Positions 21,421 to 44,093 of a DNA stretch of 64,000 bases are shown piece by piece; the first letter of the stretch is position 1; the number at the start of each line of letters is the position of its first letter. The notes under the pieces were generated by a model. It worked only from the letters and a program-made list of their open reading frames with translations, did no database searches and was not told the DNA's origin. The translations under genes and the position numbers were made by a program. This stretch comes from Leucobacter aridicollis. Its GTDB lineage: Bacteria; Actinomycetota; Actinomycetes; Actinomycetales; Microbacteriaceae. The stretch spans positions 1,302,001-1,366,000 of the forward strand of contig NZ_JACCBD010000001.1 in NCBI RefSeq assembly GCF_013409595.1, given 5' to 3'.

Positions 21421-23210
21421 TCCGAACACTACTGGCCCTGCTCCCGGCGGGCAGCGGGCCACGCCTCGCCGGGCACCTCGCCCTCACAACGCTCGGCGTG
21501 CTGCTGCGGGCCGCGGGAGTGGTGCTGCTCGTGCCGCTCGTCAGCGCCCTGTTCAGCGACGACCCGGCCGGCGCGTGGCCGTGGGTCGCGTGGCTCACGC
21601 TCGCGACCGCGGCGGGCTGGGCCGTCGACTCGGTGACGGTCCGTCTCGGGTTCGATATCGGCTTTGGGTTGCTCGAGTCGGGGCAGCGCGCGGTGGCAGA
21701 CCGCCTCGCCGACATTCGGCTCACCTGGTTCACGTCCGGGCACACCGCCACGGCTCGCCAGGCCGTCGCGGCGACGGGGCCCGACCTCGTCGGCCTCATC
21801 ATCTACCTCGTCGCGCCAATCGTTGGCGCGGTCTTGCTGCCCATCGCCATCGGGCTGGCACTCCTGCCCATCGCGTGGCCGCTCGGGGTCGCGGCGCTCG
21901 CGGGCGTTCCCGTGCTCCTCGGCGCCTTCTGGCTGGCGGGGCGGGTGAGCCACCGTGCCGACCGGGCCGCGGCAGCGAGCAACAGCGCGCTCACCGAACG
22001 TATCGTTGAGTTCGCGCGAACGCAGCAGGCGCTGCGCGCCTCACGCCGCGTCGGCGTTGAGGGAAGCCACGTGGGTGCGGCGCTCGCCGCGCAGCATGGC
22101 GCGAGCGTGCGGCTGCTCCTGCTGCAGGTCCCAGGGCAGCTGATCTTCGGGCTCGCGAGCCAGGTCGCGCTGGTGCTGCTCGCCGGGACGATCGTGGTAC
22201 TCACCACCTCGGGTGCGCTCGCCGCGCCGGCGGCCGTGGCGCTCATCGTTGTTGTCGTGCGCTACCTCGAGCCGTTTACCGTGCTTGCCGAACTCTCGCC
22301 TGGGGTGGAGTCTGCGCTCGGGGTGCTCCGGGATATTCGAGAAGTACTTGACGCGCCCGCGGTTCCGGCGGGGCGCAAGGCGCAGGCGGGCGGGGGCGCG
22401 GCCGCGAGTGTCAGGGCGCCTGATCGGTCGCATGACCGGTCGCCTGATCGGGCGCTGGGGCCGCGCTTGGAGCTGCGCGACGTCCAGTTCAGCTACGGGG
22501 CTGCGTCCGCTCAGGTACTCGACGGGCTCTCGCTCACGTTTGAACCCGGCACGACAACCGCTATCGTCGGCCCCTCGGGCTCTGGGAAGAGTACCGTGCT
22601 GTCGCTCCTCGCGGGGCTGCAGTACCCAACTGCCGGGGCGGTACTGGTTGATGGCGTTGACGCGGCGACGTTGACCGGCGCGGCCCGCCGAGAGCTTGTG
22701 AGTGTCGTGTTCCAGCACCCGTACCTGTTTGACGGCAGTATCCGCGACAACGTGCTTGTCGGTCGGCCGGCAGCCGACGACGCTCAGCTTGAACTCGCCG
22801 CCCAACTCGCGCAGGTTGACGAACTGATCGCTCGGTTGCCGGACGGTTGGGACAGTCGTGTTGGCGAAGCGGGCGGCTCCCTCTCTGGGGGTGAGAAGCA
22901 GCGCGTGTCGATCGCTCGCGCGCTCCTCAAACTCGCACCCGTGTTGCTCGTCGACGAAGCGACGAGCGCCCTCGACACCGAGAACGAAGCCGCGGTGGCG
23001 AGCGCGCTCGCAGGCGACCCGGCGCCGCGCACGCGGGTCATCGTTGCGCACCGGCTGAGCAGTATTCGCGCGGCCGACCGCGTCGTATTTCTCGAGAGTG
23101 GCGTCGTCGCTGAAGACGGGACGATCGACGAGTTGCTCGCCGCGGGTGGGCGCTTCGCTGAGTTCTGGCGGCAGCAAGACGCCGCTGGGGCGTGGCAGCT
23201 GCGGGCGTAA
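21417..23210 (+). CDS. irtB: IrtB-like siderophore ABC half-transporter
   Basis: 597 aa. Exporter-fold membrane domain (about 10-310), then an Asp/Arg/Pro-rich linker with a repeated DRS unit (about 340-355), then an ATPase with Walker [10 protein letters not shown] (about 386-394), signature LSGGEKQR, Walker [13 protein letters not shown] and switch His VAHRLS. It overlaps irtA by 4 bp and should form the IrtAB heterodimer in the cytoplasmic membrane. All ATPase motifs are canonical, in contrast to the second SIP-linked pair at 37125-40651. Confidence 0.89.
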
Positions 23211-31431: not shown

Positions 31432-32346
31432 TCACAGCCCGACGCTGTCGTACAGCGCGTAGATCTCGTCAAGCACGGCCTCGCGGCCAGCCTCGGTCGC
31501 GTCGGCGTAGGCGCCGTAGAGCGTGTCGAGGCGGGCGCGATGCTCGGCCCCCAGGGCGTCGAAGCGCGCGCGCCACGCTGCCTCGTTGTCGGTCCAGTAG
31601 CCGACGACGTGCGTCTTATCGGCCGGAAACCGGAGGGTGTGGCGCAGGTGCCGGCGCACCCGCCTGGTCATCGCAGCCTCGCCGGCGACCCACACACTCT
31701 CGCTGCCGTCCGTCGCGAGCTCGGCGCGCAGCACGATGTCCGCGACCCGGCTGGCGAAGCGCCCGTTGCCGCTGCGGTGGACCCACGTCGCTGAGACCGC
31801 GTCAGTGTGTGCCGCCGCGGCGGGCAGGCGGGCGTCGCGCGGGTCGGCGACCTCGCAGAAGAGCCGGATCCTCGTTCCCGGCGGCGCCGCTTCGATGATC
31901 CGCTCGACGGCGGGCAGCGCGGTCGCGTCGGCGACGAGCGTGATGCGCGTCGCCGACGCGGCGGGTGTGTACTGCGCGAACGGTTCGCTCACCCCGAGCG
32001 GCGCGCCGAGGCGTGCGCCCTCGGCCCACTCGGCCGCGAGCCCGCCGGCGTGGCGGACGAAGTCGATGTCGATCTCGCCAGGCCGGTGCGCGCGAACGGT
32101 GTACGTGCGCATGGGGGAGGGCGCGATGCCCGCGTCGAACTCCCACCCCCGCCCGACGACGCGCGGCAGCCGGGGTTCGGCGCCGGCGGCGTCCGGAAAG
32201 AACAGCCTGACGTACTCGTCGGGCGACCCCGTCGTCGGGTACGCCAGGAGATCGTCGCCGCCGAGCGTCACCCGGCGCATGCCGGGGCTGAGGATCGTGT
32301 TCGCGCGCACCTCGGCGCGCCGCACGCGGGCGGGGGAAGAAGGCAC
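31432..32346 (-). CDS. Siderophore-interacting protein (FAD-dependent ferric-siderophore reductase)
   Basis: 304 aa of the ViuB/YqjH-like SIP family. The flavin-binding motif RTYTV lies after SPM, followed by IDIDFVRHAGGLAAEWA, and the nucleotide-binding half has VADATALPAVERII and VWVAGEAAMTRRVRR. It reduces ferric iron in imported siderophores to release it in the cytoplasm. A C-terminal tail of about 45 residues (after GYWTDNEAAW) is Ala/Arg/Asp-rich and longer than in minimal SIPs. The start lies 4 bp after the stop of the siderophore-binding-protein gene. Confidence 0.9.
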   Translation of the reverse strand: MPSSPARVRRAEVRANTILSPGMRRVTLGGDDLLAYPTTGSPDEYVRLFFPDAAGAEPRLPRVVGRGWEFDAGIAPSPMRTYTVRAHRPGEIDIDFVRHAGGLAAEWAEGARLGAPLGVSEPFAQYTPAASATRITLVADATALPAVERIIEAAPPGTRIRLFCEVADPRDARLPAAAAHTDAVSATWVHRSGNGRFASRVADIVLRAELATDGSESVWVAGEAAMTRRVRRHLRHTLRFPADKTHVVGYWTDNEAAWRARFDALGAEHRARLDTLYGAYADATEAGREAVLDEIYALYDSVGL

Positions 32347-32350
32347 GCCG

Positions 32351-33427
32351 CTACCGCTTCAGCGCGTCGGCGAGCTCGGGAACGAACTCGTCGAGCACCC
32401 ACGGGACCGAGAGCACGGAGGGGGCGGCGACCGCCTGCGAGACCTCGCGGTCGGTGAGCCAGACGGCGCGATCGTTCGCGATGGGCTGCCAGTTGCGGAA
32501 CAGCGCGTGCGCGAGCGACGCGTCAACCTCCGCCTGGTCATTCACCAGCCCGAGGTAGACGTCGGCGTGCACCGTGTCGATGTCCTCGAGGCTGATGCCA
32601 AAGTAGATCTCGTCGGGGAAGCGCTCCGCCTCGGCGACGATCTCGGGCGACAGCGTCAGGCCGAGGTCCTGGATGATGCCGATGAGCGACGTCGTCGGCG
32701 CGTAGAACCCGACGTCGGTCGTGCCCTCGCCGACGCCAGTCGAATACACGAAGGTCGCGTCCCTGAACTCCGGATGCTCGGCCCCGTGCGCGGCGATCGC
32801 TGCTTGGGTGTCGGCGACGAGCTTCGCGGCCTGAGCCGGACGGCCGAGCGCCCTGCCGACGAGCTCGGTGTGGTCTTGCCAGTCGAGGAGCCACGGCTTC
32901 TCCGGGTATGCGAGCGTTGGCGCGATGCCCTGCAGGCGTTCGTACTGCGTGTCGGTGATTCCCGAGAACGGCGCGATGATCGCGTCGGGCCGCAGCGCGA
33001 GAATCTGCTCGAAGTCTATCTCTCCACCGCTGAGGTCCGTGAGCGTCGTCGGCAGTGGCGCGCCCGACCCTTCGACGGCCTCCCGGAACCACGGCACGAA
33101 CCCGTCCTCGTCGCCCGCCCAGCTCGACGGCACGGCGATCGGGATCACGCCGAGCGCGGCCGAGATGTCCTCAGTGGCCCAGCCGATCGTGACGACACGT
33201 TCGGGGGCCTCGTCGAGCGTGAACGTTCCGAACGCGTGGTCGATCGACACGGGAAACGCGCCCGCTTCCGGCTCGCTCACGATCGGTGGCGCAGCGGCAG
33301 ACGGCGGCGGGGCCGGGGCGTTCGTCGCGCATCCTGTCAGCGCGATGGTGAGTACTGCGAGCACGGCCGCGATGCGCCTCGCGTGGGTGCCGGCGTGCGT
33401 GCGGTGGTCGGGATGGGGGCGGGTCAT
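32351..33427 (-). CDS. Iron-siderophore substrate-binding lipoprotein
   Basis: 358 aa. Signal peptide with lipobox ALTGC (Cys at about 33), then a Pro/Ala linker and a FepB/FecB-type binding domain (RVVTIGWATEDISAALGVIPIAVP, ALRPDAIIAPFSGI, VPWVLDEFVPELADALK). Start ATG 33427 has GAGGAGA upstream. No permease or ATPase gene adjoins it, so it must share a transporter encoded elsewhere, perhaps the FecCD pair at 10.4-12.5 kb. It is 45 bp downstream of an AraC gene preceded by an iron box. Confidence 0.9.
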   Translation of the reverse strand: MTRPHPDHRTHAGTHARRIAAVLAVLTIALTGCATNAPAPPPSAAAPPIVSEPEAGAFPVSIDHAFGTFTLDEAPERVVTIGWATEDISAALGVIPIAVPSSWAGDEDGFVPWFREAVEGSGAPLPTTLTDLSGGEIDFEQILALRPDAIIAPFSGITDTQYERLQGIAPTLAYPEKPWLLDWQDHTELVGRALGRPAQAAKLVADTQAAIAAHGAEHPEFRDATFVYSTGVGEGTTDVGFYAPTTSLIGIIQDLGLTLSPEIVAEAERFPDEIYFGISLEDIDTVHADVYLGLVNDQAEVDASLAHALFRNWQPIANDRAVWLTDREVSQAVAAPSVLSVPWVLDEFVPELADALKR

Positions 33428-33471
33428 GGGTCTCCTCGTCGTGTGGTGTCCAGCGCGTGGACACTCCGAGC

Positions 33472-34320
33472 CTAGGAAGTGGCGATGTCGCGGATCGGGC
33501 AGAACGTGCCTGAATCCGCGCAGCCCGCGGTGCGCGCCTTGAGGTAGGCGCCCGGCGTCTGCCCGACCTCCTGGCGAAACGCGGTGACGAACGCGCTCGG
33601 CGAGTGGTAGCCGACCCGGCGGCCCGCTGCGGTGACCGATGCGCCGGCGGCGAGCAGGGAGACGGCGGCGTTGACGCGCACCCGCCGCCGCCAGCGCACG
33701 AAGCTCATGTCGGCGCTCTCCGAGAACGTTCGGGCGATCGTGCTGACGCTCGTTCCGGTGATCACCGACCACTGCTCGAGCGACCGGTCGTCGGCGGGGT
33801 CCGCGAGGATCGCGCGGGCGATACGACTGATGCGCGGGTCGCTCGGCACGGGCAGGCCGGCGTCGTGGGCGTGGGAGCCGCGGATCATGTCGAGGCACAC
33901 CTGCTGGGCGCGCAGCCGCTCGTCGGTGCCCATCGGGGTGTCGTTGAGGTGTTGCAGCATCTCCATGAGCGCCCGGCTGAGCCGCATCGTCGTCGGCTGG
34001 GTCGCCGCGCTGTCGCGCAGGTAGGTCGTCCCGATCCGCGCGGCGCGCATCACCTGCGAACCGTGCGTGGCGTGCGCGGGGACGAGGAGCCCCCAGCCCG
34101 GCCTGATGACGTGGATCGTGTCGCCAACGCTGACGTTGACCACCCCTGACGCGACCCAGATCAGCTCCGCGACGGCGTGGCTGTGGTCGCGCCAGCGTGC
34201 CGCCCGCGGCTGGTCGCGCACGATCGTGGCGAGGAGGAAGGGGCCGGGGATGAGCTCGTCAGGATCGCGCACCCCATGCACCTCGGGTGCGGCGAGCGTC
34301 GGCGTGCGTAGGGCTGGCAT
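33472..34320 (-). CDS. AraC-family regulator with N-terminal cupin domain
   Basis: 282 aa. Cupin-like sensor domain (about 30-110, HSHAVAELIWVASGVVNVSVGD and VPAHATHG), then two AraC helix-turn-helix units (about 165-265; WRRRVRVNAAVSLLAAGASV and VGYHSPSAFVTAFRQEVGQTPGAY). The C-terminus adds CADSGTFCPIRD with two Cys. The start abuts an iron box, so iron controls the regulator itself. It heads the transcript with the siderophore-binding-protein and SIP genes and may activate it in response to siderophore, by analogy with RipA or YbtA-type regulators. Confidence 0.88.
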   Translation of the reverse strand: MPALRTPTLAAPEVHGVRDPDELIPGPFLLATIVRDQPRAARWRDHSHAVAELIWVASGVVNVSVGDTIHVIRPGWGLLVPAHATHGSQVMRAARIGTTYLRDSAATQPTTMRLSRALMEMLQHLNDTPMGTDERLRAQQVCLDMIRGSHAHDAGLPVPSDPRISRIARAILADPADDRSLEQWSVITGTSVSTIARTFSESADMSFVRWRRRVRVNAAVSLLAAGASVTAAGRRVGYHSPSAFVTAFRQEVGQTPGAYLKARTAGCADSGTFCPIRDIATS

Positions 34321-34338
34321 GAGCTTAGGGTAACCTAA
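34320..34338. promoter_or_regulatory. DtxR/IdeR-type iron box, best match in the window
   Basis: TGAGCTTAGGGTAACCTAA matches the IdeR consensus at 16 of 19 positions. The inverted repeat CTTAGG-gtaa-CCTAAG spans 34324-34339. It overlaps the predicted transcription start of the leftward AraC gene: a -10-like GATACT is the complement of 34338-34343. It also lies 49 bp upstream of the rightward AraC gene at 34387, so it may control both directions. Confidence 0.83.
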
Positions 34339-34386: not shown

Positions 34387-35319
34387 ATGCCCAACGAGTT
34401 CACCCCGCGCCAGATCTCCGACCGTGACGTCGCGGCGTTTACGAGCCAGGATCTGCACCGGGAGGGCACGCGCAGTCGCGACGCGATGCCGATGGGCGCC
34501 GTCGTGCACGCGTTCGGGCCGCTGTTCGTGATCGAGGCCTCGGGCGGGCCGACCGAGATCGAGCGCCGCCCGCTGCTGCCTGGCATGCCGACCATAGACT
34601 TCGTGTTCGTCACGCGCGGCACCTTCATCTACCGCGAGGACGACGCGTGGATTGAATCGAGCGATCCGCTGCTCGTCGCCCCGAGCGGTCTGCCGATGCG
34701 CGTGCAGTTCCTCACGGACTGGCGCTTTCTCGTCGCTCGGATCCAGTGCGACGCCCTGCTTCCGTTCCTGCCGCGACTTCCCGAGGGGACGACCGTGTAC
34801 CCGGAACTCACGCTGCCGGAGCGAGCGATGCGGGGGTACCTCGCCGAGCTCGCGCACGCGCCGGCAAGCGTGGGGCCTGGGGATGCCGCAACGGTGTCCA
34901 GGGTCGCGATCGAGATGGCCGGCGCGCTGCTGCGCGGCCGGTTCCCCCTGCTGTCTGCGGAGCCCGGGAAGGGCGCGGCAGACGTGTGGAGCGACGCGAT
35001 GGGCGTGATCGCACGCGAGTGCAGCGCGGCCGGGTTCGGGCCGCGGGAGCTCGCCGCGGCCGTCGGGTGCTCGGTTCGGCGACTCCAGCTCGCCTTCGCC
35101 AGGCACGAGACGAGCGTCGGCGCGGAGCTGCGGCGTGAGCGCGCCCGGATCGCGCGGTCGATGCTGCAGAATCCGGAGCATGACGGGCGCTCGGGCGCCG
35201 AGGTTGCGGCGCGCTCGGGTTTCGGGTCGGCGTCGACGATGTATCGCGTGCTGCTCGACACGTACGGCGTCACCCAGCAAGAGCTGCGCCGCCGGGCGGC
35301 CGCGCCGCGGGGCGCGTGA
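34387..35319 (+). CDS. AraC-family regulator (AraC-binding-like N-terminal domain)
   Basis: 310 aa. An N-terminal AraC-binding-like domain (about 15-180) precedes a C-terminal helix-turn-helix pair (about 205-300) with GFGPRELAAAVGCSVRRLQLAFARHETSVG and SGFGSASTMYRVLLDTYGVTQQELRRR. It differs in type from the two cupin-AraC neighbours. The stop overlaps the start of the next AraC gene. The closest iron box is shared with the divergent AraC/siderophore operon. Confidence 0.85.
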   Translation: MPNEFTPRQISDRDVAAFTSQDLHREGTRSRDAMPMGAVVHAFGPLFVIEASGGPTEIERRPLLPGMPTIDFVFVTRGTFIYREDDAWIESSDPLLVAPSGLPMRVQFLTDWRFLVARIQCDALLPFLPRLPEGTTVYPELTLPERAMRGYLAELAHAPASVGPGDAATVSRVAIEMAGALLRGRFPLLSAEPGKGAADVWSDAMGVIARECSAAGFGPRELAAAVGCSVRRLQLAFARHETSVGAELRRERARIARSMLQNPEHDGRSGAEVAARSGFGSASTMYRVLLDTYGVTQQELRRRAAAPRGA

Positions 35320-36095
35320 TGGCGGCACGCTCGCACCTGTCGACGGCGCCGCAGCGCATTCGCGGGTTTTTGCTCACCAGCGTGCGTCACGAGAGCCGCA
35401 GCATTCGCGCGTGGGAGACCGAGGTGCACGAGCACGACGAACTCATCTGGTCGACTGCGGGGGTTGCTACGGTCCGCGCCGGCGACTCCGTATGGACGGT
35501 GCCGGCGCAGCGCGCGGTGTGGGTGCCGAGCGGGGTGCCCCACACGATCGAGACCTCGGCCGACTCGCTGTTCTATGCGACCTTCCTCGAGGCCGGGCTT
35601 GCGGCGCAGCTGCCGCGGGAGGCGATGGTGGTCGAACTCATTCCGGCGGTGCGCGAGCTGCTCTTGCTCAACGCCGAGTCCGAGATGCCGACCGACACGC
35701 GGCTCCGGCTCCAGCGCCTCGTGATCGAGCTGCTCACGCCGAGCCCCGGCGCGCAGGTCGACCTGCGGATGCCCGTGACCCCGAGCCTGCTCGCCGTCGC
35801 GGAGCGCATCCTCGCGGATCCGGGCGCGTTCGACACTACGGTCGACTGGGCCGAGCGCGTCGGGCTGCCGCCGCGCGAGCTGACGCGCGCGTTCGTCGCC
35901 GAGACCGGGCTCTCGCTCACGCAGTGGCGGATCCGCGCGCGCGTGCGCGCCTCGCTCGTGCTGCTCGCGTCCGGGCAGACTGTCGCCGCGACGGCCGCGT
36001 CGCTCGGCTACGCGAACCCGAGCACCTTCATCGGGCACTTCCGCGAGATTGTCGGGACGACCCCGGCGGCGTACTTCGCGGGTGCCAGCGCGTAG
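35319..36095 (+). CDS. AraC-family regulator, paralogue of the 33472-34320 product
   Basis: 258 aa; ATG 35319 overlaps the previous stop (TGATG), with GTG 35316 as alternative. Cupin domain HEHDELIWSTAGVATVRAGD and WVPSGVPHTI, then the helix-turn-helix pair with WRIRARVRASLVLLASGQTV and LGYANPSTFIGHFREIVGTTPAAYF. Side-by-side reading shows the same organisation as the divergent AraC protein, so the two are paralogues. It lies upstream of the SIP-ABC-ABC operon and may bind the inverted repeat at 36181-36203. Confidence 0.87.
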   Translation: MAARSHLSTAPQRIRGFLLTSVRHESRSIRAWETEVHEHDELIWSTAGVATVRAGDSVWTVPAQRAVWVPSGVPHTIETSADSLFYATFLEAGLAAQLPREAMVVELIPAVRELLLLNAESEMPTDTRLRLQRLVIELLTPSPGAQVDLRMPVTPSLLAVAERILADPGAFDTTVDWAERVGLPPRELTRAFVAETGLSLTQWRIRARVRASLVLLASGQTVAATAASLGYANPSTFIGHFREIVGTTPAAYFAGASA

Positions 36096-36180: not shown

Positions 36181-36203
36181 ATAGCGATATTTGTCTTCGC
36201 TAT
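36181..36203. promoter_or_regulatory. Inverted repeat ATAGCGA-N9-TCGCTAT next to an iron box
   Basis: Perfect 7-bp arms (36181-36187, 36197-36203) separated by 9 bp, ending 6 bp before the iron box at 36210. The spacing places the arm centres about 16 bp apart, on nearly the same helix face. A plausible binding site for an activator such as the adjacent AraC protein. A -35-like TTGACC is at 36173-36178. Confidence 0.5.
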
Positions 36204-36209
36204 GGTGGA

Positions 36210-36228
36210 TCAGGTAAGGCAACCCTTA
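36210..36228. promoter_or_regulatory. DtxR/IdeR-type iron box upstream of the SIP-ABC-ABC operon
   Basis: TCAGGTAAGGCAACCCTTA matches the IdeR consensus at 14 of 19 positions. Its core is the inverted repeat GGTAAGG-caac-CCTTACC (36213-36230). It lies 99 bp upstream of the SIP start at 36328 and should repress the three-gene operon when iron is plentiful. Confidence 0.78.
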
Positions 36229-36327: not shown

Positions 36328-37125
36328 ATGGCCATTCCCTGCGCACCCGCCCGCGTCGTTACCACGCAGCGGCTGACCCCGAACATGCTGCGCATCACGT
36401 TCGAAGCTGTCGGCGACTGGCTGTGGCCGACGCACGGCCGCGGCGACGAGCGCGTCGACATCGCGCTCCCGGCTCCCGGCGAGACCGTCGCGAACATCGA
36501 CGTGTTCAACCTGCCAGAGTACGGGCGCGGCTGGGAAGGGGAGGAGCCACCGTGGCGGCACTACACCGTTCGCCAGGTGCACGAGGGCGGCAGGCTTCTG
36601 GACATCGACTTCGTCGTGCACGACGGCGGGCTCGCCTCGGCTTGGGCCGAGCGGGCGGAGCCCGGGCACATCATCGGCATCTTCGGGGCGGGCGAGCGCG
36701 AGGAACCCTCCTCGTACTACGCTGCACCCGACGACGCGGAGTTCCAGCTGCTCGTCGCCGACGCGACCGGCGTGCCGGGGCTCGGCCGGATCCTCGAGCA
36801 GCTCCCCGCCGGGGCCCGCGCGCTCGCGATCGTCGAGGTGCCCACCGAGGCTGACATCCAGGAGTACGAGACCGCCGGCGACGTCGAGATCCGCTGGCTC
36901 ATCGGCTCCGGCAACGGGCACGGCCCGAGCGCGCTCGCGACCGAGGTCGCCGGGCTCAGCGCGCCCAAACACCCCTGGTACGCGTGGGTCGCGTGCGAGG
37001 CGGCGACGAGCCGCGCCATCCGCAGCGACCTCCGCGCCCGGCTCGGCCTCGCGCGCAACCGGCACCACGCGATCGGGTACTGGACCCAGGACCGCACCGG
37101 CAACATGTCTGCCGACGTCGACTGA
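36328..37125 (+). CDS. Siderophore-interacting protein (FAD-dependent ferric reductase)
   Basis: 265 aa. SIP-family flavin domain with RHYTVRQ (about residue 76) and IDFVVHDGGLASAWAE, then the nucleotide half with VADATGVPGLGRILEQLP and the C-terminal HAIGYW motif. ATG 36328 with GGAAGG upstream; the longer open frame upstream would cross the iron box. Its stop overlaps the start of the next ABC gene by one base (TGATG). The order SIP, ABC, ABC mirrors the fused IrtA-IrtB arrangement at 18.7-23.2 kb, but with the reductase as a separate protein. Confidence 0.9.
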   Translation: MAIPCAPARVVTTQRLTPNMLRITFEAVGDWLWPTHGRGDERVDIALPAPGETVANIDVFNLPEYGRGWEGEEPPWRHYTVRQVHEGGRLLDIDFVVHDGGLASAWAERAEPGHIIGIFGAGEREEPSSYYAAPDDAEFQLLVADATGVPGLGRILEQLPAGARALAIVEVPTEADIQEYETAGDVEIRWLIGSGNGHGPSALATEVAGLSAPKHPWYAWVACEAATSRAIRSDLRARLGLARNRHHAIGYWTQDRTGNMSADVD

Positions 37126-38837
37126 TGGCCCGGCGGCGCGCCGTGGCGCGGGAGGCGTCACCGCACCCGGTTCCCAACCTGCTGCGCGTCGCGCTCGCCG
37201 GCGACAAACGCGACAGAAAGCTCGCCCTCGCGACGCTCGGCCTCATGCTGCACCAGGCGGGCGAGGCGGCCGTCCCGATCCTCATCGGCGTCGTCATCGA
37301 CCGGGCGATTGCGCCGGGCAACCTCTCGGCGCTGCTGCTCTGGCTCGGCGTGCTCGGCGCCGTGTTCCTCGTGCTGTCGCTGAGCTACCAGCGCTCGGTC
37401 CTCGCGATGGTGAGCGTCTTTGGCTACGGGGAGCACGACCTTAGGCTGCTCGCCGCCAGGCGGGCGCTCCACCCGCGCGGCCTGCGCACGGCGCGCCATC
37501 CCGGCGAGCTGCTGTCGATCGCCACGAGCGACACGGGGCGCGTCGCGGGCATCGCCTGGAGCATCGCGCAGCAGGCGGCGACGCTCATGGCTGTCGCCGC
37601 CGCGACGATCGCGCTGCTCGTGATCTCGGTCCCGCTCGGGATCGGCGTGGCCGTCGGCGCGGTCGCCGTGCTGTTCGTGATGCAGTGGCTCGCCCGACCG
37701 CTCGAACGGGCCGGCGCGACCGAGCAGCAGGCCGTCGCGTCGGCGAGTGAGGTCGCAACCGACGCGCTCGCCGGGCTCCGCGTGCTGCACGGCCTCGGCG
37801 CGCAGGCGGAGATGGTGCGCAAGTACCGGGGCGCGAGCGTCGCCTCGCGCGACGCCGGCATCGCTGCCGCGCGCCTCCTCGTCACCTACCAGGCCGTCAG
37901 CACGACAGTGTCGGTGCTGTACCTTGCGGGGCTCGCGCTCGCCGCCGGCTGGCTCGCCGTCCGCGGCGAGATCACCCCGGGGCAGCTCGTGACCGTCGTC
38001 GGTCTCGCGCAGTTTCTCCAGGGATCGCTCGCCCACGTCGGCACCTTCGGCGCAAATTGGGCCCACAAGCGCGCCTCCGCCCGCCGCCTGCGTGCGCTGC
38101 TCGAGGAGGACTACGCCCTGGGGGCCGGGACCGTTGGCGCCGTCGAGGCGCTCGACACCGCGGCCGCCGCCGGCGCGCTGCTCGAATGGGACGCGCCCAG
38201 CGGCGAGACCCTGCGCGTGAACGTCGACGACGGCCTCGTCGGCGTCCGGGTGCGCACCGCCGCCGAGGCGCGCACCGCCGCCGCGACGCTCGGCTTCCGG
38301 CGCGACCCCGCGCCGGGCGAGCTCAGGCTCGGCGGCCTGTGCGCCTGCGACCTCGGACCCGAGTGCGTGGCGCGGCGGATCGTCGCGCCACCGCACGACG
38401 CTGCCCTGTTCACCGGGTCGCTGCGCGCGAACGTCGCACGGGACGGCTGTCTCCTGCAGCGCCCGATCAACGCCGCGGCCCTCGCGGACGTCGTCGACCA
38501 CTTGGGCGATGCTGACGAGGAGATCGGCGCCGGCGGCAGGCGGCTCTCGGGCGGCCAGCGGCAGCGGGTGCTGCTCGCGCGGGCGCTGCACACGCCGGGG
38601 GACGTCGTCGTGCTCGACGAGCCGACGAGTGCGCTCGATCCCCTCACGGAGCAGCGCGTGGCCGAGTCGCTCGCACGCCTCGGCAGGCCGGTCGTCGTCG
38701 TGACGGCGAGCCGGACGCTGCTCGCCGCGTGCTCGCGCGTCGTGGACGGCCGCTGCCGCGAGCCCGAGCGCACGTGTTGCACCGCAGCGGGCACTGGCAG
38801 CGCGGGCGCCGCCTGCTGCGCGCTCGGGGCGCGCTGA
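37125..38837 (+). CDS. ABC half-transporter with an ATPase domain that has lost its Walker A motif
   Basis: 570 aa. Exporter-fold membrane domain (about 25-315). In the ATPase domain the P-loop is replaced: after GLVG the sequence reads VRVRTAAEARTAA (about 374-386), without GxxGxGKS/T. The Q-loop region reads APPHDAALF, and the switch His is Ala528 (VVTASR). The signature LSGGQRQR (474-481) and Walker B VVVLDEPTSALD remain intact. It can therefore contribute the signature to a partner but cannot bind ATP normally itself. The C-terminal tail (last 30 residues) has six Cys. Coupled to the next gene by TGATG. Confidence 0.85.
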   Translation: MARRRAVAREASPHPVPNLLRVALAGDKRDRKLALATLGLMLHQAGEAAVPILIGVVIDRAIAPGNLSALLLWLGVLGAVFLVLSLSYQRSVLAMVSVFGYGEHDLRLLAARRALHPRGLRTARHPGELLSIATSDTGRVAGIAWSIAQQAATLMAVAAATIALLVISVPLGIGVAVGAVAVLFVMQWLARPLERAGATEQQAVASASEVATDALAGLRVLHGLGAQAEMVRKYRGASVASRDAGIAAARLLVTYQAVSTTVSVLYLAGLALAAGWLAVRGEITPGQLVTVVGLAQFLQGSLAHVGTFGANWAHKRASARRLRALLEEDYALGAGTVGAVEALDTAAAAGALLEWDAPSGETLRVNVDDGLVGVRVRTAAEARTAAATLGFRRDPAPGELRLGGLCACDLGPECVARRIVAPPHDAALFTGSLRANVARDGCLLQRPINAAALADVVDHLGDADEEIGAGGRRLSGGQRQRVLLARALHTPGDVVVLDEPTSALDPLTEQRVAESLARLGRPVVVVTASRTLLAACSRVVDGRCREPERTCCTAAGTGSAGAACCALGAR

Positions 38838-40651
38838 TGGGCGCGAAGAACCTCGGTCGCGCGGACGAGCCGGCGGGCGGGGGATCGGCCGTGGGGGCCG
38901 GCGTCTCCGGCCTGCTGCCGACGTCGTCCGCGGCCGCGGCCGCGAAGCTCGGCCTGCGACTCCTCTGGCGCCAGCGCTGGCTGCTGCTCGCGACAGTCAC
39001 GCTGCTGCTCCTCGGGACGGCGGCGATGCTGCTCGTGCCGCCGCTCCTGGGCGCGGTCGTCGACGCGGTCATCGCGGGGGAACCGTTCACGCGCGTGCTG
39101 TGGCTTGGCGTCGCGATCGCGGGCGCCGGCGTCACCGCCGCCGCGCTCGAGGGGATCGGCGGCGTGCTGCTCGTGCGCTGCCTCCAGCACGCGCTCGCGG
39201 CGCTCCGCGAGGACGTGTTCGACGCGGCCCTGAACCTGCCGTTACGCCGCGTGGAGGCCGCCGGAGACGCCGACGTCATCTCGCGCGTGACGAACGACGT
39301 CGAGGCCGTGACGGAGGCGATCGCCGGGGTGATCCCGCTCTGCGCGCGTGCCGTCTTCACGATCGTGCTCACGCTCGTCGGCATGGCAGCGCTCGACCCC
39401 TGGCTCGCGCTCGCCGCGCTCGTCGCGGTGCCGATCCAGATCGCCAGTACGCGTGCGTTCATGCGGCGATCTCGGCCGCTGTACGCGAGGCTCCGCCGCG
39501 AGGAGGCGGAGCGCGGGCGCGCGTTCGTGGAGGCCGTCGCCGGCGCGGAGACCGTGCGCGCGTACGGGACCGCCGAGGAACACCTCACGGCAATCGCGCG
39601 CGCGAGCGACACCGCCGTGCGCACCCACCGCGAGACCGGCAAGGCGCGAAACATCTTCATCGGCGGCCTCAACGGCGCAGAGTTCGTCGGCCTCGCGGCG
39701 GTGCTTGCCGTCGGGTTCGTGCGGGCGACCGCGGCCGGGCTCTCCGTTGGCGCCGTCACCGCGGGGGCGCTCTACTTCCACAGGCTCTTCAACCCGATCG
39801 GCGACCTGCTCGGGAGCATGGACGACCTGCAGCGCGCCCTCGCCGGGCTGCAGCGCCTCACCGGGGTGGTGATCGCCGGCGCGGAAGCGCGAGCGGACAC
39901 CTTTGCGGGTGCAGGCAGCTCGGAGATCGCCGACGGTGCGGTCGAGGTGCTCGGCGTGAGCTTCCGCTACGGAGCGCAGACCCGCCGCGCCGCGCTCCAG
40001 GGGGTCGACCTGTCCATCCCAGCCGGCGCCACCGTCGCGCTCATCGGCACCTCCGGCTCGGGCAAGAGCACGCTCGCCCGGCTCATCGCAGGCTTCGACG
40101 AACCGGCCGCGGGCGGCGTGCGCATCGGGGGCGTTCCCGCGCACGTGGCGCGGTCGGGCGGGCGCCCAGCCGCGCTGCTCGTTGCGCAGGAGACGCACCT
40201 GTTCGCGGGCACCGTCGGCGACAACGTCAGGATCGCGGCTCCCGGCGCGAGCGACCGCGAACTCGCCGCCGCCCTCGCCGAGGTCGGGTTCGATCTCGCG
40301 GCGGTGCCCGGAGGCCTCGACGGCACGCTCCCGCCGGCGGTGAGCCACCGGGAGGCGCAGCAGCTCGCCCTCGCCAGGGTGCTGCTCGCGGATCCGCCGG
40401 TCGTCGTGCTCGACGAGGCGGGCTCCCAGGCGGGCTCGGACGCCGCGCTCGCCACGGCGATGCGGCGCGTGAGCGCCGGTCGCACCGCCGTCGTCATCGC
40501 CCACCACCTCGACCAGGTGCGCGGCGCCGACCGCGTGGTCGTGCTGGAGCAGGGGTGCGTCATCGAGCAGGGGGAACCCGGCGAACTCCTCGAGCGGCCG
40601 GACGGCGCGTTCGCCCGGCTGTGGCGCATGGCGCAGTGGGCTGAGGAGTAG
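38837..40651 (+). CDS. ABC half-transporter, catalytic partner with intact Walker A but lost signature motif
   Basis: 604 aa. A flexible Gly/Ala N-terminus is followed by a membrane domain (about 45-340) and an ATPase domain. Walker A GTSGSGKST (404-412), a Q-loop with VAQETHLF, Walker B VVVLDEAGSQ with the catalytic Glu, and switch His VIAHH are all present. The signature LSGGQ is replaced by VSHRE (502-506). Combined with the upstream protein, this gives exactly one complete ATP site: its own Walker A/B/H-loop with the partner's LSGGQ. Expected partner for siderophore import with the SIP. Confidence 0.86.
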   Translation: MGAKNLGRADEPAGGGSAVGAGVSGLLPTSSAAAAAKLGLRLLWRQRWLLLATVTLLLLGTAAMLLVPPLLGAVVDAVIAGEPFTRVLWLGVAIAGAGVTAAALEGIGGVLLVRCLQHALAALREDVFDAALNLPLRRVEAAGDADVISRVTNDVEAVTEAIAGVIPLCARAVFTIVLTLVGMAALDPWLALAALVAVPIQIASTRAFMRRSRPLYARLRREEAERGRAFVEAVAGAETVRAYGTAEEHLTAIARASDTAVRTHRETGKARNIFIGGLNGAEFVGLAAVLAVGFVRATAAGLSVGAVTAGALYFHRLFNPIGDLLGSMDDLQRALAGLQRLTGVVIAGAEARADTFAGAGSSEIADGAVEVLGVSFRYGAQTRRAALQGVDLSIPAGATVALIGTSGSGKSTLARLIAGFDEPAAGGVRIGGVPAHVARSGGRPAALLVAQETHLFAGTVGDNVRIAAPGASDRELAAALAEVGFDLAAVPGGLDGTLPPAVSHREAQQLALARVLLADPPVVVLDEAGSQAGSDAALATAMRRVSAGRTAVVIAHHLDQVRGADRVVVLEQGCVIEQGEPGELLERPDGAFARLWRMAQWAEE

Positions 40652-40750: not shown

Positions 40751-40814
40751 GTATAGGTGAGGTTATCAATTCATGGCGCGCCATCTCGGCGGGCCGGGAG
40801 GAGAAGAAATCACC

Positions 40815-41255
40815 ATGGCTAACGCAACACCCACGCAGGCACCCAGCAAGTCACCGAGCGCCCAGGCGGTCGAGGGCAAGACGACCATCGACGATGGCGT
40901 CGTCGCGAAGATCGCCGGAATCGCCGCACGCGAGATCCAGGGCGTGTACGCGCTCGGCGGCGGCGCGGCACGCGTGGTCGGGGCGATCCGGAACGTCCTG
41001 AACACCACCGATCTCGCGCAGGGCATCAACGTCGAGGTTGGCGAAACCCAGGTCGCCGTCGACGTCACGATCGTCGCCGAGTACCCGGTGTCGCTGCAGC
41101 GGGTCGCGCAGGAGGTGCGCGAGTCCATCGCGAAGGCGATGCACGAACTCGTCGGGATGGAGGTCGCCGAGGTCAACGTGACCGTGAACGACGTCCACAT
41201 CGCCTCAGACGACGACGATGGCGACAGCGACGCAGAAGAAGCGCGAGTACAGTGA
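40815..41255 (+). CDS. Asp23/Gls24-family envelope stress protein
   Basis: 146 aa. Gls24 core with GVVAKIAGIAAREIQGVYAL and the paired-strand region VEVGETQVAVDVTIVAEYPVSL, ending in an acidic tail (SDDDDGDSDAEEA). In Gram-positives these proteins line the membrane through small membrane partners and respond to envelope or alkaline stress. ATG 40815 with GGAGGAGAAG upstream; in-frame 40773 is an alternative. First gene of an eight-gene operon in which each following start overlaps the previous stop. Confidence 0.9.
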   Translation: MANATPTQAPSKSPSAQAVEGKTTIDDGVVAKIAGIAAREIQGVYALGGGAARVVGAIRNVLNTTDLAQGINVEVGETQVAVDVTIVAEYPVSLQRVAQEVRESIAKAMHELVGMEVAEVNVTVNDVHIASDDDDGDSDAEEARVQ

Positions 41256-41440
41256 GCCCGGCAGCGGTGGGGGCCGCCGCCGGCGCCGTGCTCGCCCTCA
41301 CCTGGATCATCCTGGGGTTCTGGGCCTGCGTGTTCGTGGCCGCCGCGATGGCGGTCGGCACGCTCGTCGGCCGGGTCATTGACGGCAGGATCGACGTGCG
41401 CGCCCTCGCGCGGGCGCTCCGCGGGAGGGGATCGTCGTGA
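41252..41440 (+). CDS. Small membrane protein (DUF2273-like) of the Asp23 cluster
   Basis: 62 aa, GTG start overlapping the previous stop (GTGA). Two close hydrophobic segments (about 5-25 and 27-43) form a hairpin, followed by a basic C-terminus (RALARALRGRG). This shape matches the small DUF2273-type membrane proteins that accompany Asp23/AmaP. It probably anchors Asp23-like protein at the membrane. Confidence 0.75.
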   Translation: MSPAAVGAAAGAVLALTWIILGFWACVFVAAAMAVGTLVGRVIDGRIDVRALARALRGRGSS

Positions 41441-41775
41441 CACGCGACCGGCCCGTGCCCGGCCGCACCGTGATCACCGCACGCGCACTCGAGCGGCTCG
41501 CCGTCGGGGCCGCCCGCGGCGCCGAGGCCTGGCGTGATGCCGCAGCGAGCCCCCGGGCGGTCGGCGTGAAGCTCGCCGACGACGCCGGAGACCTGCGCGC
41601 GAGCGTGCAGATCGACCTCACGCTCGGCCGCGCGCCCGAACCACTTCTCCCGCTCGGTGACGCCGTGCGCGCGGCCATGATCGCGCAGCTGTCGGCGCTC
41701 GGCGGCAGAAGCGTGTCACGCGTGGACGTGAGATTTTCGGCGGGAGGCCGGGCGACCGAACGGAGGGTGGCGTGA
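41437..41775 (+). CDS. Divergent Asp23-like protein
   Basis: 112 aa from GTG 41437, overlapping the previous stop by 4 bp. It reads as a short Asp23/Gls24 domain: VKLADDAGDLRASVQIDLTLG (paired strands), LGDAVRAAMIAQLSALGG (helix), VSRVDVRFS (strand). It lacks the N-terminal helix conserved in the first paralogue. Probably a structural component of the Asp23 layer; no enzyme motif. Confidence 0.6.
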   Translation: MTRDRPVPGRTVITARALERLAVGAARGAEAWRDAAASPRAVGVKLADDAGDLRASVQIDLTLGRAPEPLLPLGDAVRAAMIAQLSALGGRSVSRVDVRFSAGGRATERRVA

Positions 41776-42347
41776 CTGCGAACACATCGTTTCTGCCGCA
41801 CTACCGCCGGCTGCTCCGGCGAGAAACCCACGCCGCCCGGACCGGGTGGGCGACAGTGGCGGCAGTGCTCGTCGGCGTGACCGCCCTCGTCGCGTTTGTC
41901 GTGAGTATCTGGGTGCTGCTCGAACCGGGCCTCGACCGCCGCCTCGCCGCAGCGGTCGGCAGCTGGGTGGGTGGCGACGCCACGCCGCGCGTCGCCCTCG
42001 CAGCCGGAGCCGGCGTCGCGCTTGTCGCGCTCGTCTTCGTGGTCCTCGCGTGCGTGCCCGGCCGCCGGCCGCGGCAGCGGCGGGTGGCACCCAGGACGGC
42101 GATCCTGATCGACGACCAGGTGCTCGCCAACGCGACCGCGGACGCCGTCGCCCGTGACAGCGGCGTGCCGCGAGACCGGATTACCGTCGACGCGCAGCGC
42201 GGCCGCGTCCGCGTCAGGGTGACCCCGACGAGCGGGGTGCCGCTCGCCGAGACCACCGTCCGCGAGGCCGCGGCGGCCGTGTGGGAGGCCGCCGGCATCC
42301 CCGCCAGTGTGCGCGTCACGATCGCCGCTCGAGGGGTGGTGGCATGA
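41772..42347 (+). CDS. Membrane protein of the Asp23 cluster (DUF6286-like)
   Basis: 191 aa from GTG 41772 with GTGA overlap. Two transmembrane segments (about 27-50 and 72-96) precede a cytoplasmic alpha/beta domain (RTAILIDDQVLANATADAVARDSGV, then ITVDAQRGRVRVRVTPTSG). The soluble part again looks like the Asp23-type fold. Proteins of this shape sit beside Asp23 genes in actinomycetes and may tether them. The family name is a tentative recollection. Confidence 0.6.
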   Translation: MTANTSFLPHYRRLLRRETHAARTGWATVAAVLVGVTALVAFVVSIWVLLEPGLDRRLAAAVGSWVGGDATPRVALAAGAGVALVALVFVVLACVPGRRPRQRRVAPRTAILIDDQVLANATADAVARDSGVPRDRITVDAQRGRVRVRVTPTSGVPLAETTVREAAAAVWEAAGIPASVRVTIAARGVVA

Positions 42348-42958
42348 ACGACGTCTCACGCATCCTCAACCGCGTCGTGCTGCTGCTCGTCGGGTGCCTG
42401 ATCGCGGCAGCGGGCGCCGCCCTCGCGCTGTGGGCGCAGTGGCCGAACGCGCTGCCGCCCTGGCTGACCGAAGCGGGCGCGCGCGCCGTCGAACGCGCGC
42501 ATCAGCTGACGATCTGGGGCGCACGCGCCCTCGGGCTCGACGAGCGGCTGAGCGTGGCAGCCTCCGTGCTCATCGCCTCGCTCGTCGTGCTGCTCGCGGT
42601 CGTCTGGTTCGTCGCGACGCGACGGACACAGCGCCCCTCCGTCGCGCTCACCGCGGGCGGGCCCGCCGGCCGCACCGAGATCGATCCGGGGCTCGCGACG
42701 CTCGCGCTCGCCGGCCCGCTCCGGGATCGGCGCGACGTCACCTCGGCGCGGGTCAGCCTGCACCGGGTGCGGCGCGTCACCACGATCCGGCTCGCCGTCA
42801 CCGTCCGCCGCGGCGCCCGCCTCGACGAGGTGATTTCGGCCGCCGAGGCCGCAGTCGCGGACTGGGACGTGCTCGCAGGGGTGCGCATGCCGGTGCTCCT
42901 GCACCTCGAGGGACCCGGGCTGACAGGCAGGCTGCGTGCCGAAATGAGGGCCACGTGA
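42344..42958 (+). CDS. Membrane protein of the Asp23 cluster (AmaP-like)
   Basis: 204 aa, ATGA overlap with the preceding gene. Two transmembrane segments separated by about 40 residues (about 8-28 and 72-92) match AmaP, the Asp23 membrane anchor, followed by a soluble domain of Asp23-like strands (TSARVSLHRVRRVTTIRLAVTV). It would recruit Asp23 to the membrane. The frame can be read further upstream, but ATG 42344 gives proper coupling. Confidence 0.7.
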   Translation: MNDVSRILNRVVLLLVGCLIAAAGAALALWAQWPNALPPWLTEAGARAVERAHQLTIWGARALGLDERLSVAASVLIASLVVLLAVVWFVATRRTQRPSVALTAGGPAGRTEIDPGLATLALAGPLRDRRDVTSARVSLHRVRRVTTIRLAVTVRRGARLDEVISAAEAAVADWDVLAGVRMPVLLHLEGPGLTGRLRAEMRAT

Positions 42959-43542
42959 TCCGCGAGGCCGCCGGGTGGCCTGCCGGCGGCCCCAGCGGAT
43001 CCCTCGACGCGGCGGACGACCGGATCGTCGCTGGCCGGGCCGTGGACGGCGACACCGCTGCCTTCGCCGTGCTGGTGCGCCGGTTCACGCCGCTCATGCG
43101 CGCCTACGCCCGCAGGATGCTGAACGGCAGCGCGGACGTCGACGACGTCGTGCAGGAGTCCTTCATCACCGCATGGGAACGGCTGCCGGAGCTCACCGAT
43201 CTCGAACGGGTGAAGAGCTGGCTCATGCGTATCACCAGCCGCAAGGCGATCGACAGGCTCCGGCGTGACCGGGCACACGTCGACCTCGCCGACGTTGATC
43301 CGGAGGGGCCAGCATCCGCGACCCCGCCGCAGCAGGCGCAGGCTCGCTCGCTAGTCGAAGCGCTCGGCGACGCGCTCGAAACGCTGCCGGCTGCGCAGCG
43401 CGAGACCTGGCTGCTCAGGGAGGTCGGCGAACTGAGCTACGACGATATCGCGGGTGAGCTCGGGCTGCCGCTCGCGACCGTGCGCGGACTGCTCGCGCGC
43501 GCACGAAAAGCCCTCATAGTGCGAATGGAGCAGTGGCGATGA
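42955..43542 (+). CDS. ECF-type RNA polymerase sigma factor
   Basis: 195 aa from GTG 42955 (GTGA overlap). Region sigma2 spans about 25-95 (AFAVLVRRFTPLMRAYARRML, VDDVVQESFITAWERL), and sigma4 about 130-190 (LPAAQRETWLLREVGELSYDDIAGELGLPLATVRGLLARARKAL). It likely directs transcription of this envelope-stress operon. No anti-sigma factor with a recognisable zinc motif is adjacent; the next genes are Asp23-like, so sensing may be through them, which is inference. Confidence 0.88.
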   Translation: MIREAAGWPAGGPSGSLDAADDRIVAGRAVDGDTAAFAVLVRRFTPLMRAYARRMLNGSADVDDVVQESFITAWERLPELTDLERVKSWLMRITSRKAIDRLRRDRAHVDLADVDPEGPASATPPQQAQARSLVEALGDALETLPAAQRETWLLREVGELSYDDIAGELGLPLATVRGLLARARKALIVRMEQWR

Positions 43543-44093
43543 CGGCAGAGACACCGACGGAACGCGCGGACGCGGGCGAGGAGACCGCCGAGCAGCGACT
43601 GGAGCGTGACGCGCTCGACCGCCTCAGCGAGCTCGTCCCCGCGCTGCTCGAACGAGACGCACAGGCGGAGGGCGCCGTCGACGAGTCGTGGGTGCGCGGA
43701 GTGCTCGCCGGCATTCGGCTCGATGCGCGGGCCGGCAGGCGGATCCCGATCGAGGCAGGCGAGCGCGCAGACCTCGGCATCACCGAGGGTGCCGTGCGCG
43801 GCATCATCCGCGCCTGCGAGGACCGCGTGCCGGGGGCGCTCATCGGCCGGTGTCAGCTCGACGGCGACGTGACCGAGCCTGGCGCCCCCATCCGCGTGGA
43901 GGTGGACGTGAGCGCGCTGTACGGGGCGCCGATCGTGCCCCTCGCCGAGCGGCTCCGCGCCGAGATCGGCCAGGCGCTCGCAGCGCATACGCCGCTTGCC
44001 GTCGCCGCGATTGATATCTCGGTCAGGGACGTGCAGCTGCCCGGCCCTGCCAGCCTTGCCCACCCCGAAGCGACAGGAGGCTCCGCGTCATGA
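43539..44093 (+). CDS. Asp23-family protein downstream of the sigma factor
   Basis: 184 aa from ATG 43539 (ATGA overlap with the sigma gene; GTG 43533 possible). An acidic N-terminal half (DAGEETAEQRLERDALDRLSEL) precedes an Asp23-like domain (IEAGERADLGITEGAVRGIIRA, IRVEVDVSALYGAPIVPLAERLRAEIG). The N-terminal charged helices and direct position after an ECF gene are where an anti-sigma factor is usually found, so a regulatory role is possible but unproven. Confidence 0.65.
   Translation: MTAETPTERADAGEETAEQRLERDALDRLSELVPALLERDAQAEGAVDESWVRGVLAGIRLDARAGRRIPIEAGERADLGITEGAVRGIIRACEDRVPGALIGRCQLDGDVTEPGAPIRVEVDVSALYGAPIVPLAERLRAEIGQALAAHTPLAVAAIDISVRDVQLPGPASLAHPEATGGSAS

Follow-up and report, generated by a model that had tools for sequence, protein, structure and literature searches.

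Complementary loss of ATP-site motifs in an iron-linked pair of actinobacterial ABC half-transporters

A 64,000-nucleotide stretch of the Leucobacter aridicollis genome (contig NZ_JACCBD010000001.1, positions 1,302,001 to 1,366,000; hereafter, the window) contains an operon of a gene for a siderophore-interacting protein (SIP) and genes for two ATP-binding cassette (ABC) half-transporters, ABC1 and ABC2, whose ATP-site motifs are lost in a complementary way. Of the two composite sites that the pair could form, one would be complete and the other would lack elements on both of its sides. The same rule holds for all 75 pairs of relatives that were compared. As far as sequence can tell, it is close to certain that ABC1 and ABC2 would form an obligate heterodimer, and as close to certain that the heterodimer would have one hydrolytic site.

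ATP-site motifs of the two half-transporters

The motifs were read from the sequence (Table 1) and compared, by alignment, with those of four canonical half-transporters of the window: IrtA, the IrtB-like protein and both members of a further pair. ABC1 has lost Walker A, with alanine at the position of the Walker A lysine, as well as the Q-loop and the switch histidine; it retains the signature, both acidic residues of Walker B (Asp and Glu) and the Asp of the D-loop. ABC2 retains Walker A, the Walker B Glu, the switch histidine and, in the alignment, an intact Q-loop; its signature is degraded, and the D-loop Asp, present in ABC1, is absent, so that the D-loop follows the same complementary rule as the other motifs. 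A homodimer of ABC2 would have no signature and a homodimer of ABC1 no P-loop; the one complete site would be that formed between the two proteins. Sequence and alignment thus bear out the reading of an earlier note on this DNA, which had described an ABC1 without Walker A, with an altered Q-loop and Ala528 but with LSGGQRQR, and an ABC2 with Walker A, the Walker B Glu and the switch histidine but with VSHRE as its signature. Its description of one site as completely dismantled is slightly overstated for this member, as ABC1 of the window keeps Walker B. The complementarity of the D-loop Asp, and a gap at the A-loop of most ABC1 relatives (below), go beyond that note.

Both halves contain the Pfam domains ABC_membrane (PF00664) and ABC_tran (PF00005), with the transmembrane domain (TMD) preceding the nucleotide-binding domain (NBD). 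The ABC_tran match in ABC1 spans only positions 86–137 of 137. The stop codon of the SIP gene and the start codon of ABC1 share the sequence TGATG, and the junction of ABC1 and ABC2 is the same overlap; the list of open reading frames (ORFs) also allows a longer SIP gene starting at 36202. Among 14 PF00664 matches in the genome of the window (12 of them over the cut-off), in a search that missed some ABC genes of the window, ABC1 alone lacks a P-loop. Two of the other matches (L255 and L259) show ordinary degeneration, with SAGE or SAGQ for SGGQ and a P-loop present.

Conservation and divergence of the pair

The relatives were compared at 84 loci, obtained from 80 region requests (one of them a duplicate), two plasmid regions, which come without annotation, and three loci (L035–L037) taken from a scan of genome contigs with unspecific patterns. 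The loci were hand-picked from the match lists to span the range of scores and are a non-random sample; most listed matches were left unfetched. Proteins were typed as ABC1 or ABC2 by their best whole-protein score against the window proteins, independently of the motifs.

ABC1 is present in 80 of the 84 loci, with an ABC2 partner in 75 of these 80. The Walker A lysine was found in none of the 80 ABC1 relatives, and the Q-loop glutamine and the switch histidine in 1/80 each; the signature SGG[QE] and the D-loop Asp are universal (80/80), the Walker B Asp is present in 18/80, and the A-loop tripeptide is gapped in 75/80. The 75 ABC2 partners show the mirror image: the Walker A lysine, Q-loop glutamine, Walker B Asp, Walker B Glu and switch histidine are each conserved in 75/75, SGG[QE] is found in 0/75, and the D-loop Asp is present in 27/75 and absent from 48/75. 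Counted per composite site, the losses are complementary in 75/75 pairs. The complementarity noticed earlier in a single pair is therefore conserved in other genomes, and no non-complementary pair was seen among them.

The match lists agree with the loci. None of the 120 ABC1 homologues among the matches listed (52–98% identity) has the P-loop pattern and all 120 have SGG[QE]; their named sources include Leucobacter, Brachybacterium, Microbacterium, Corynebacterium, Nocardioides and Streptomyces. Conversely, all 120 ABC2 homologues among the matches listed have the P-loop and none has SGG[QEM]. A frameshift or sequencing error in ABC1, the possibility that would have restored the P-loop, is ruled out by the agreement of the 120/120 listed homologues and the 80/80 locus copies. 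The Cys-rich C-terminal tail of ABC1 was also considered as a frameshift, given that an overlapping frame resembles a normal ABC C-terminus; this was rejected, a short variable tail being usual in the displayed relatives. One ABC1 homologue with 87% identity (P0004) is filed under Nonlabens tegetincola, a Bacteroidota name, and is probably a mislabelled or contaminated record.

Progressive motif decay is visible across the relatives of both proteins. Walker B of ABC1 reads DE in the 13 loci with the highest scores, whereas most mid-scoring loci have HD, and the D-loop Asp of ABC2 persists mainly in the lowest-scoring branch. The residues that replaced the lost motifs are conserved in their turn. 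In 50 aligned ABC1 sequences Ala382 is found in 50/50 and Arg383 in 47/50, which argues that the Walker A loss is maintained and is not drift; Pro423 (50/50), His424 (49/50), Trp355 (50/50) and an invariant Cys536 were found in the same alignment.

Matches at E ≤1e-60 occur in 88/297 genomes of the order and 124/394 of the class, and at E ≤1e-55 in 18/296 genomes of the phylum, of which seven belong to other classes; the genome searches scored just the top 3–6 candidates per genome, and these counts include matches whose type was not checked one by one. In the phylum-search loci (L270–L280, at least three of which repeat places already counted) ABC1 lacks the P-loop and has LSGGQRQR in 11/11; the partners, cut by the locus end, show a P-loop in 9/11 and an SGG signature in 0/11. 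Four loci among the lowest-scoring (L221, L223, L224 and L225; 88–96 bits) contain canonical ABC proteins only. An intact ABC2 ORF is missing beside ABC1 in L037, L191, L207, L208 and L247, with no ABC2 within the fetched region save in L191, where ABC1 is intact, ABC2 is split over two ORFs, and matches to SIP, binding-protein and FecCD genes lie in the locus. In L248 the gene order is reversed, with ABC2 upstream of ABC1.

In a tree with only 12 canonical outgroups, the ABC1 proteins, including TetA of the Corynebacterium plasmid pTP10, form one clade (82/82, support 0.995), and the ABC2 proteins, including TetB of the same plasmid, form another (77/77, support 1.0). The distances within the two families are strongly correlated (r 0.935 for 75 pairs, with a maximum of 0.065 in 500 permutations), a correlation to which shared species history also contributes.

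Iron context

The iron linkage of the pair is supported by the window and by the closest relatives. In the window the SIP gene lies at 3 bp from the pair, a gene for a siderophore-binding protein at 3.5 kb and the nearest FecCD match at 24.8 kb. A DtxR/IdeR-type iron-box-like palindrome precedes the operon; a stronger iron-box-like site (16/19) was observed at 34320–34338, between divergent AraC-type regulators. The left flank on the minus strand holds one of these AraC regulators beside the second SIP gene and the FepB-type gene.

Neighbours were surveyed with eight tblastn queries, by which distant genes may be missed, and distances were taken from ORFs, the starts of which are possibly too long. 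The core loci were defined by an ABC1 score of at least 340 (n=18, excluding the window), a cut chosen post hoc where the scores drop from 346 to 277. Within 6.5 kb of the pair, 15/18 core loci contain a binding-protein gene, 15/18 a FecCD permease gene and 14/18 a SIP gene; the corresponding numbers for the 62 non-core loci are 8, 9 and 2. Pfam searches confirmed PF01497 neighbours in L175, L177, L180, L183, L184 and L187, and AraC-type domains in L183, L184 and L187. DtxR/IdeR-like sites (at least 14/19) were found within 2.6 kb upstream of ABC1 in 31/80 loci, as compared with 0/80 inside genes, 2/79 downstream and 1/80 in shuffled sequences, which preserve base content only; the sites are concentrated in loci with an ABC1 score above 190 (27/48, vs 4/32 below). 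A separate search pattern, derived from the 36210–36228 site of the window, is no independent test of that site. The connection to iron drawn in the earlier note is supported by the iron genes in the flank of the operon, the siderophore-import neighbours of the core loci and the upstream iron-box-like sites of the relatives.

Domain searches of the genome of the window found no IucA/IucC domain and no condensation domain of nonribosomal peptide synthetases (NRPS), other biosynthetic routes being outside these searches. Among 18 genomes (16 with core loci, G429 and that of the window), IucA/IucC was found in 5 and the NRPS condensation domain in 10; seven, including the genome of the window, have neither. 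Export of a siderophore made by the host through NRPS or NRPS-independent (NIS) synthesis was accordingly dropped as unsupported, the two domains not having been found in the host genome, which looks like that of a specialised consumer of foreign siderophores. The same genome has ten SIP-domain, 12 PF01497 and 20 FecCD matches.

The window also contains a genuine IrtA, with SIP fused to the ABC half-transporter, at 18748–21420 (1179 bits to PDB 6tej_A). The ABC gene that follows it (both genes lie within 18748–23210) was named IrtB-like by position, and both proteins are canonical at the ATP motifs. Another canonical pair of ABC half-transporters, at 14178–17437, lies upstream of the IrtA region. 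On the other side of the operon, positions 40773–44093 hold an Asp23-family gene (PF03780) and then small ORFs, a possible cell-envelope stress cluster; a sigma-factor-like stretch was read by eye within 42307–43542.

Table 1. Features of the SIP–ABC1–ABC2 operon and its flank (window coordinates)
Feature	Position	Strand	Remarks
ABC1 half-transporter, 570 aa	37125..38837	+	P-loop-less, signature and D-loop intact; PF00664 and PF00005 over cut-off
ABC1 Walker A replacement VRTAAEART, residues 376–384	38250..38276	+	Lys position is Ala382
ABC1 Q-loop replacement APPHDAALF, residues 421–429	38385..38411	+	
ABC1 signature LSGGQRQR, residues 474–481	38544..38567	+	retained
ABC1 Walker B and D-loop VVVLDEPTSALD, residues 494–505	38604..38639	+	Asp, Glu and D-loop Asp present
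ABC1 switch region VVVTASRT	38694..38717	+	His replaced by Ala528
ABC2 half-transporter, 604 aa	38837..40651	+	ATP half-site intact, signature and D-loop Asp lost; PF00664 and PF00005 over cut-off
ABC2 Walker A GTSGSGKST, residues 404–412	40046..40072	+	retained
ABC2 degraded signature VSHREAQQ, residues 502–509	40340..40363	+	replaces LSGGQ
ABC2 Walker B with Glu VVVLDEAGSQAG, residues 522–533	40400..40435	+	D-loop Asp lost
ABC2 switch VVIAHHLD	40490..40513	+	His556 retained
SIP-family siderophore-interacting protein	36328..37125	+	PF04954 114 bits; PF08021 (FAD_binding_9) 79 bits
DtxR/IdeR-type iron-box-like palindrome upstream of SIP–ABC1–ABC2	36210..36228	+	14/19 to TTAGGTTAGSCTAACCTAA
Two AraC-type regulators upstream of the SIP operon	34387–35319, 35316–36095	+	PF12833
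ORF with FepB-type siderophore-binding protein	32351..33898	-	true start probably internal; PF01497 66.5 bits on 32351–33583
Second SIP gene, divergent iron cluster	31432..32346	-	PF04954 96.5 bits

Mechanism, known systems and competing explanations

We propose that ABC1 and ABC2 function only together, as a heterodimeric ABC transporter of type IV (exporter fold), and that just one of its two ATP sites works. This site would be formed by Walker A, the Walker B Glu, the Q-loop and the switch histidine of ABC2 together with LSGGQ and the D-loop of ABC1. The opposite site would lack the P-loop, the Q-loop glutamine and the switch histidine on the ABC1 side and the signature and the D-loop Asp on the ABC2 side; it would neither bind nor hydrolyze ATP, and that it holds no nucleotide seems probable. 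The former P-loop could be a plain strand–turn–helix, the NBDs on this side could be held by protein–protein contacts, and one ATP per cycle would switch the pump. An AlphaFold model of ABC1, made as a monomer from 50 sequences (pLDDT, the predicted local distance difference test, 88.5; pTM, the predicted template modelling score, 0.81), has a strand at 371–375, a three-residue loop at 376–378 and a helix at 379–389, inside which the lysine-equivalent Ala382 sits. In the monomeric model of ABC2, made from 36 sequences (pLDDT 85.2, pTM 0.61), the strand at 399–404 is followed by a five-residue loop at 405–409, and the helix begins at Lys410.

As to the role, an importer and the SIP may deliver and strip the siderophore, and the pair may then export the iron-free form, here probably a foreign one. 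Export is favoured on genomic context and on the analogy to TetAB; the chances that the pair exports an iron-free or foreign siderophore appear about even. Taken as a whole, the combination of a one-site heterodimer with iron-free siderophore export is the explanation that we consider, with moderate confidence, to be the best.

A relative with a published function is TetAB of the Corynebacterium striatum plasmid pTP10 (NF000506/NF000103), which NCBIfam labels as tetracycline efflux. StrV/StrW are presumably relatives too. TetA reads EPAERSYAT, FPPHTVNVF, LSGGQRQR, VLILDDPTTGLD and VVITGNAA at the motifs in question, with the switch histidine missing, and TetB reads GTSGAGKST, LLTQDVHLF, IPPEVEQQ, VLILDEATAEAG and LVVAHRLD; the core of Walker B and the D-loop is LDDPTTGLD in TetA and LDEATAEAG in TetB. 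The losses are thus complementary as in ABC1 and ABC2. The two pairs are distant: TetA scores 97 bits against ABC1 and TetB 163 bits against ABC2, the positions of TetA and TetB inside the ABC1 and ABC2 clades are weakly supported (0.33 and 0.53), and the window proteins fall far below the cut-offs of the TetAB family models (ABC1, 89 bits vs 1025; ABC2, 157 vs 999). The 50 features listed for the pTP10 stretch, whose gene table is incomplete, include no SIP or siderophore gene. The title of the 1999 paper by Tauch describes TetAB of pTP10 as a resistance-conferring ABC transporter (as cited in PMC4384142). TetAB shares the pattern and is published as resistance-conferring, therefore such a pair functions. 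The one-site engine suggested by the earlier note gains from this precedent as well as from the 75 complementary pairs.

The design of one consensus and one degenerate site is already known, and TM287/288 and Pdr5 come nearest to the window pair. TM287/288 and MsRv1273c/72c have the exporter fold with one site of each kind, like the window pair, and the family profiles find TM287 as the best half-transporter match of ABC1 (140 bits) and TM288 as that of ABC2 (299 bits). The degenerate site of TM287 has a Walker A. These transporters bind nucleotide at the degenerate site, whereas ABC1 has no P-loop there; compared with the TM287/288 type, the pair has the same domain make-up and one consensus site and differs in the missing P-loop. 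In TM287/288 the nucleotide at the degenerate site stabilises the contacts between the NBDs (PMC5216877), and in MsRv1273c/72c ATP occupies this site, where Walker A is retained (PMC12038006). Pdr5 is a near-complete eukaryotic precedent. At its nucleotide-binding site 1 (NBS1) the lysine is replaced by Cys, the Glu by Asn and the His by Tyr, the signature reads LNVEQ, only the D-loop is unaltered, and ATP is nevertheless held (PMC7756269, PMC8421411). The remark of the earlier note that known exporters keep the P-loop is thus broadly right, with the exception that the P-loop lysine of Pdr5 is already Cys. As in the window pair, the motif losses at NBS1 are drawn from both NBDs. In contrast, Pdr5 (PDR/ABCG) is a full-length protein with the NBD before the TMD, while the window proteins are half-size, begin with the TMD and belong to PF00664; Pdr5 keeps the D-loop, whereas in the window family the glycines of Walker A disappear along with the lysine, the A-loop is gapped in 75/80 ABC1 proteins and 48/75 ABC2 proteins have no D-loop Asp, as is the case in the window; Walker B of ABC1 is kept in the window and its clade. 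In the consulted portion of the open-licence literature we found no description of a prokaryotic heterodimeric exporter family with one P-loop-less half, and no text on the complementary motif pattern of TetAB-type pairs.

Of the competing explanations, the least credible is that ABC1 is a decaying pseudogene or a product of sequencing error. The loss of several catalytic motifs would fit it, but ABC1 is an open frame that overlaps both of its neighbours, and its relatives share the retained signature and D-loop Asp, the Walker A loss and the invariant replacement residues, by which this explanation is practically refuted. A working ABC2 homodimer with ABC1 as a merely regulatory partner is very improbable: although the half-site for ATP binding is complete only in ABC2, neither side of the homodimer would carry a signature motif, an ABC2 ORF accompanies ABC1 in 75 of the 80 loci, and the divergence of the two proteins is matched. 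More serious, but still rather unlikely, is a second site that no longer hydrolyses ATP but is occupied by a nucleotide or some other ligand that serves as structural glue. Precedents would be Pdr5, whose NBS1 holds ATP although only its D-loop has stayed unaltered (PMC7756269, PMC8421411), and TM287/288 with its stabilising nucleotide (PMC5216877). The invariant Trp355 and the intact Walker B of ABC1 in the window would suit such a role, but the Walker A glycines are lost along with the lysine, the A-loop tripeptide is gapped in most ABC1 relatives, and in the model of ABC1 the former loop becomes part of a helix. Several points weigh against a one-site pump with an empty second site and a role in siderophore recycling. 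Walker B is the sole surviving ABC1 element of the opposite site in the window member, and Trp355 could still act as an aromatic platform. Pdr5 binds ATP at an altered site, therefore missing motifs are no proof of an empty one. In TetAB(60), a different heterodimer, deletion of the Walker A region from either half abolished resistance (PMC5138185), so some pumps of this kind do not tolerate the loss of a single P-loop. Finally, the recycling role is less supported for the window pair than for its relatives, with the nearest FecCD match 24.8 kb off, and most members whose ABC1 scores less than 190 have neither iron neighbours nor boxes.

The remaining alternative is an IrtAB-like siderophore importer with SIP as a separate subunit, perhaps fed by the FepB-type protein. 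Like IrtAB, the pair would be an exporter-fold heterodimer with a tie to SIP and iron, and the SIP gene lies directly upstream of ABC1 and overlaps it (in L184 it follows ABC2, again with overlapping ends). The FepB-type gene is nearby and the nearest FecCD match is not. The PDB entries name IrtA a mycobactin importer, the fold search with ABC1 also brought up IrtB chains, and IrtA of the window is the next-best window reference for ABC2 in most loci compared. On the other hand, SIP is fused to IrtA and is a separate gene in the operon, the window has a genuine IrtA of its own, and this IrtA and its IrtB-like partner are canonical at the ATP sites, unlike ABC1 and ABC2, which form their own clades with family profiles nearer to TM287 and TM288. 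No IrtA or IrtB chain occurs among the best 60 PDB rows for either profile. The distant relative TetAB is, moreover, named an efflux transporter. Since a FecCD importer gene adjoins the pair in 15/18 core loci, the pair is not evidently the importer, and import fed by a binding protein, once considered as the leading explanation, was demoted for this reason. Membership in IrtAB was rejected on the separate clades and the profile ranking, and the proposal of the earlier note of a split-subunit IrtAB analogue is not supported. Some signals run contrary to this placement: in a single-sequence search ABC1 scores 80.3 bits to TM287 and 75.5 bits to IrtB, and in Foldseek, where TM287, TmrAB chain B and MsbA are the top matches of ABC1, the first IrtB chains come at rank 20, their identity being 24% vs 20% for TM287. 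An importer is a doubtful alternative, on a par with a glue-binding second site.

In TM287/288, MsRv1273c/72c and Pdr5 the dead site holds nucleotide (PMC5216877, PMC12038006, PMC8421411). We lean towards the view that the iron-linked pairs and TetAB form an actinobacterial class of pumps that would use a single ATP, with a nucleotide-free second site in which the glue is replaced by contacts between the P-loop helix and the remade signature. A conserved family in which the site is apparently structurally removed, together with a working TetAB, would test whether one ATP per cycle is sufficient, and would let one ask what joins the NBDs when no nucleotide acts as glue. The survey further points to an iron-linked pump that recurs in actinobacteria, with a putative siderophore substrate.

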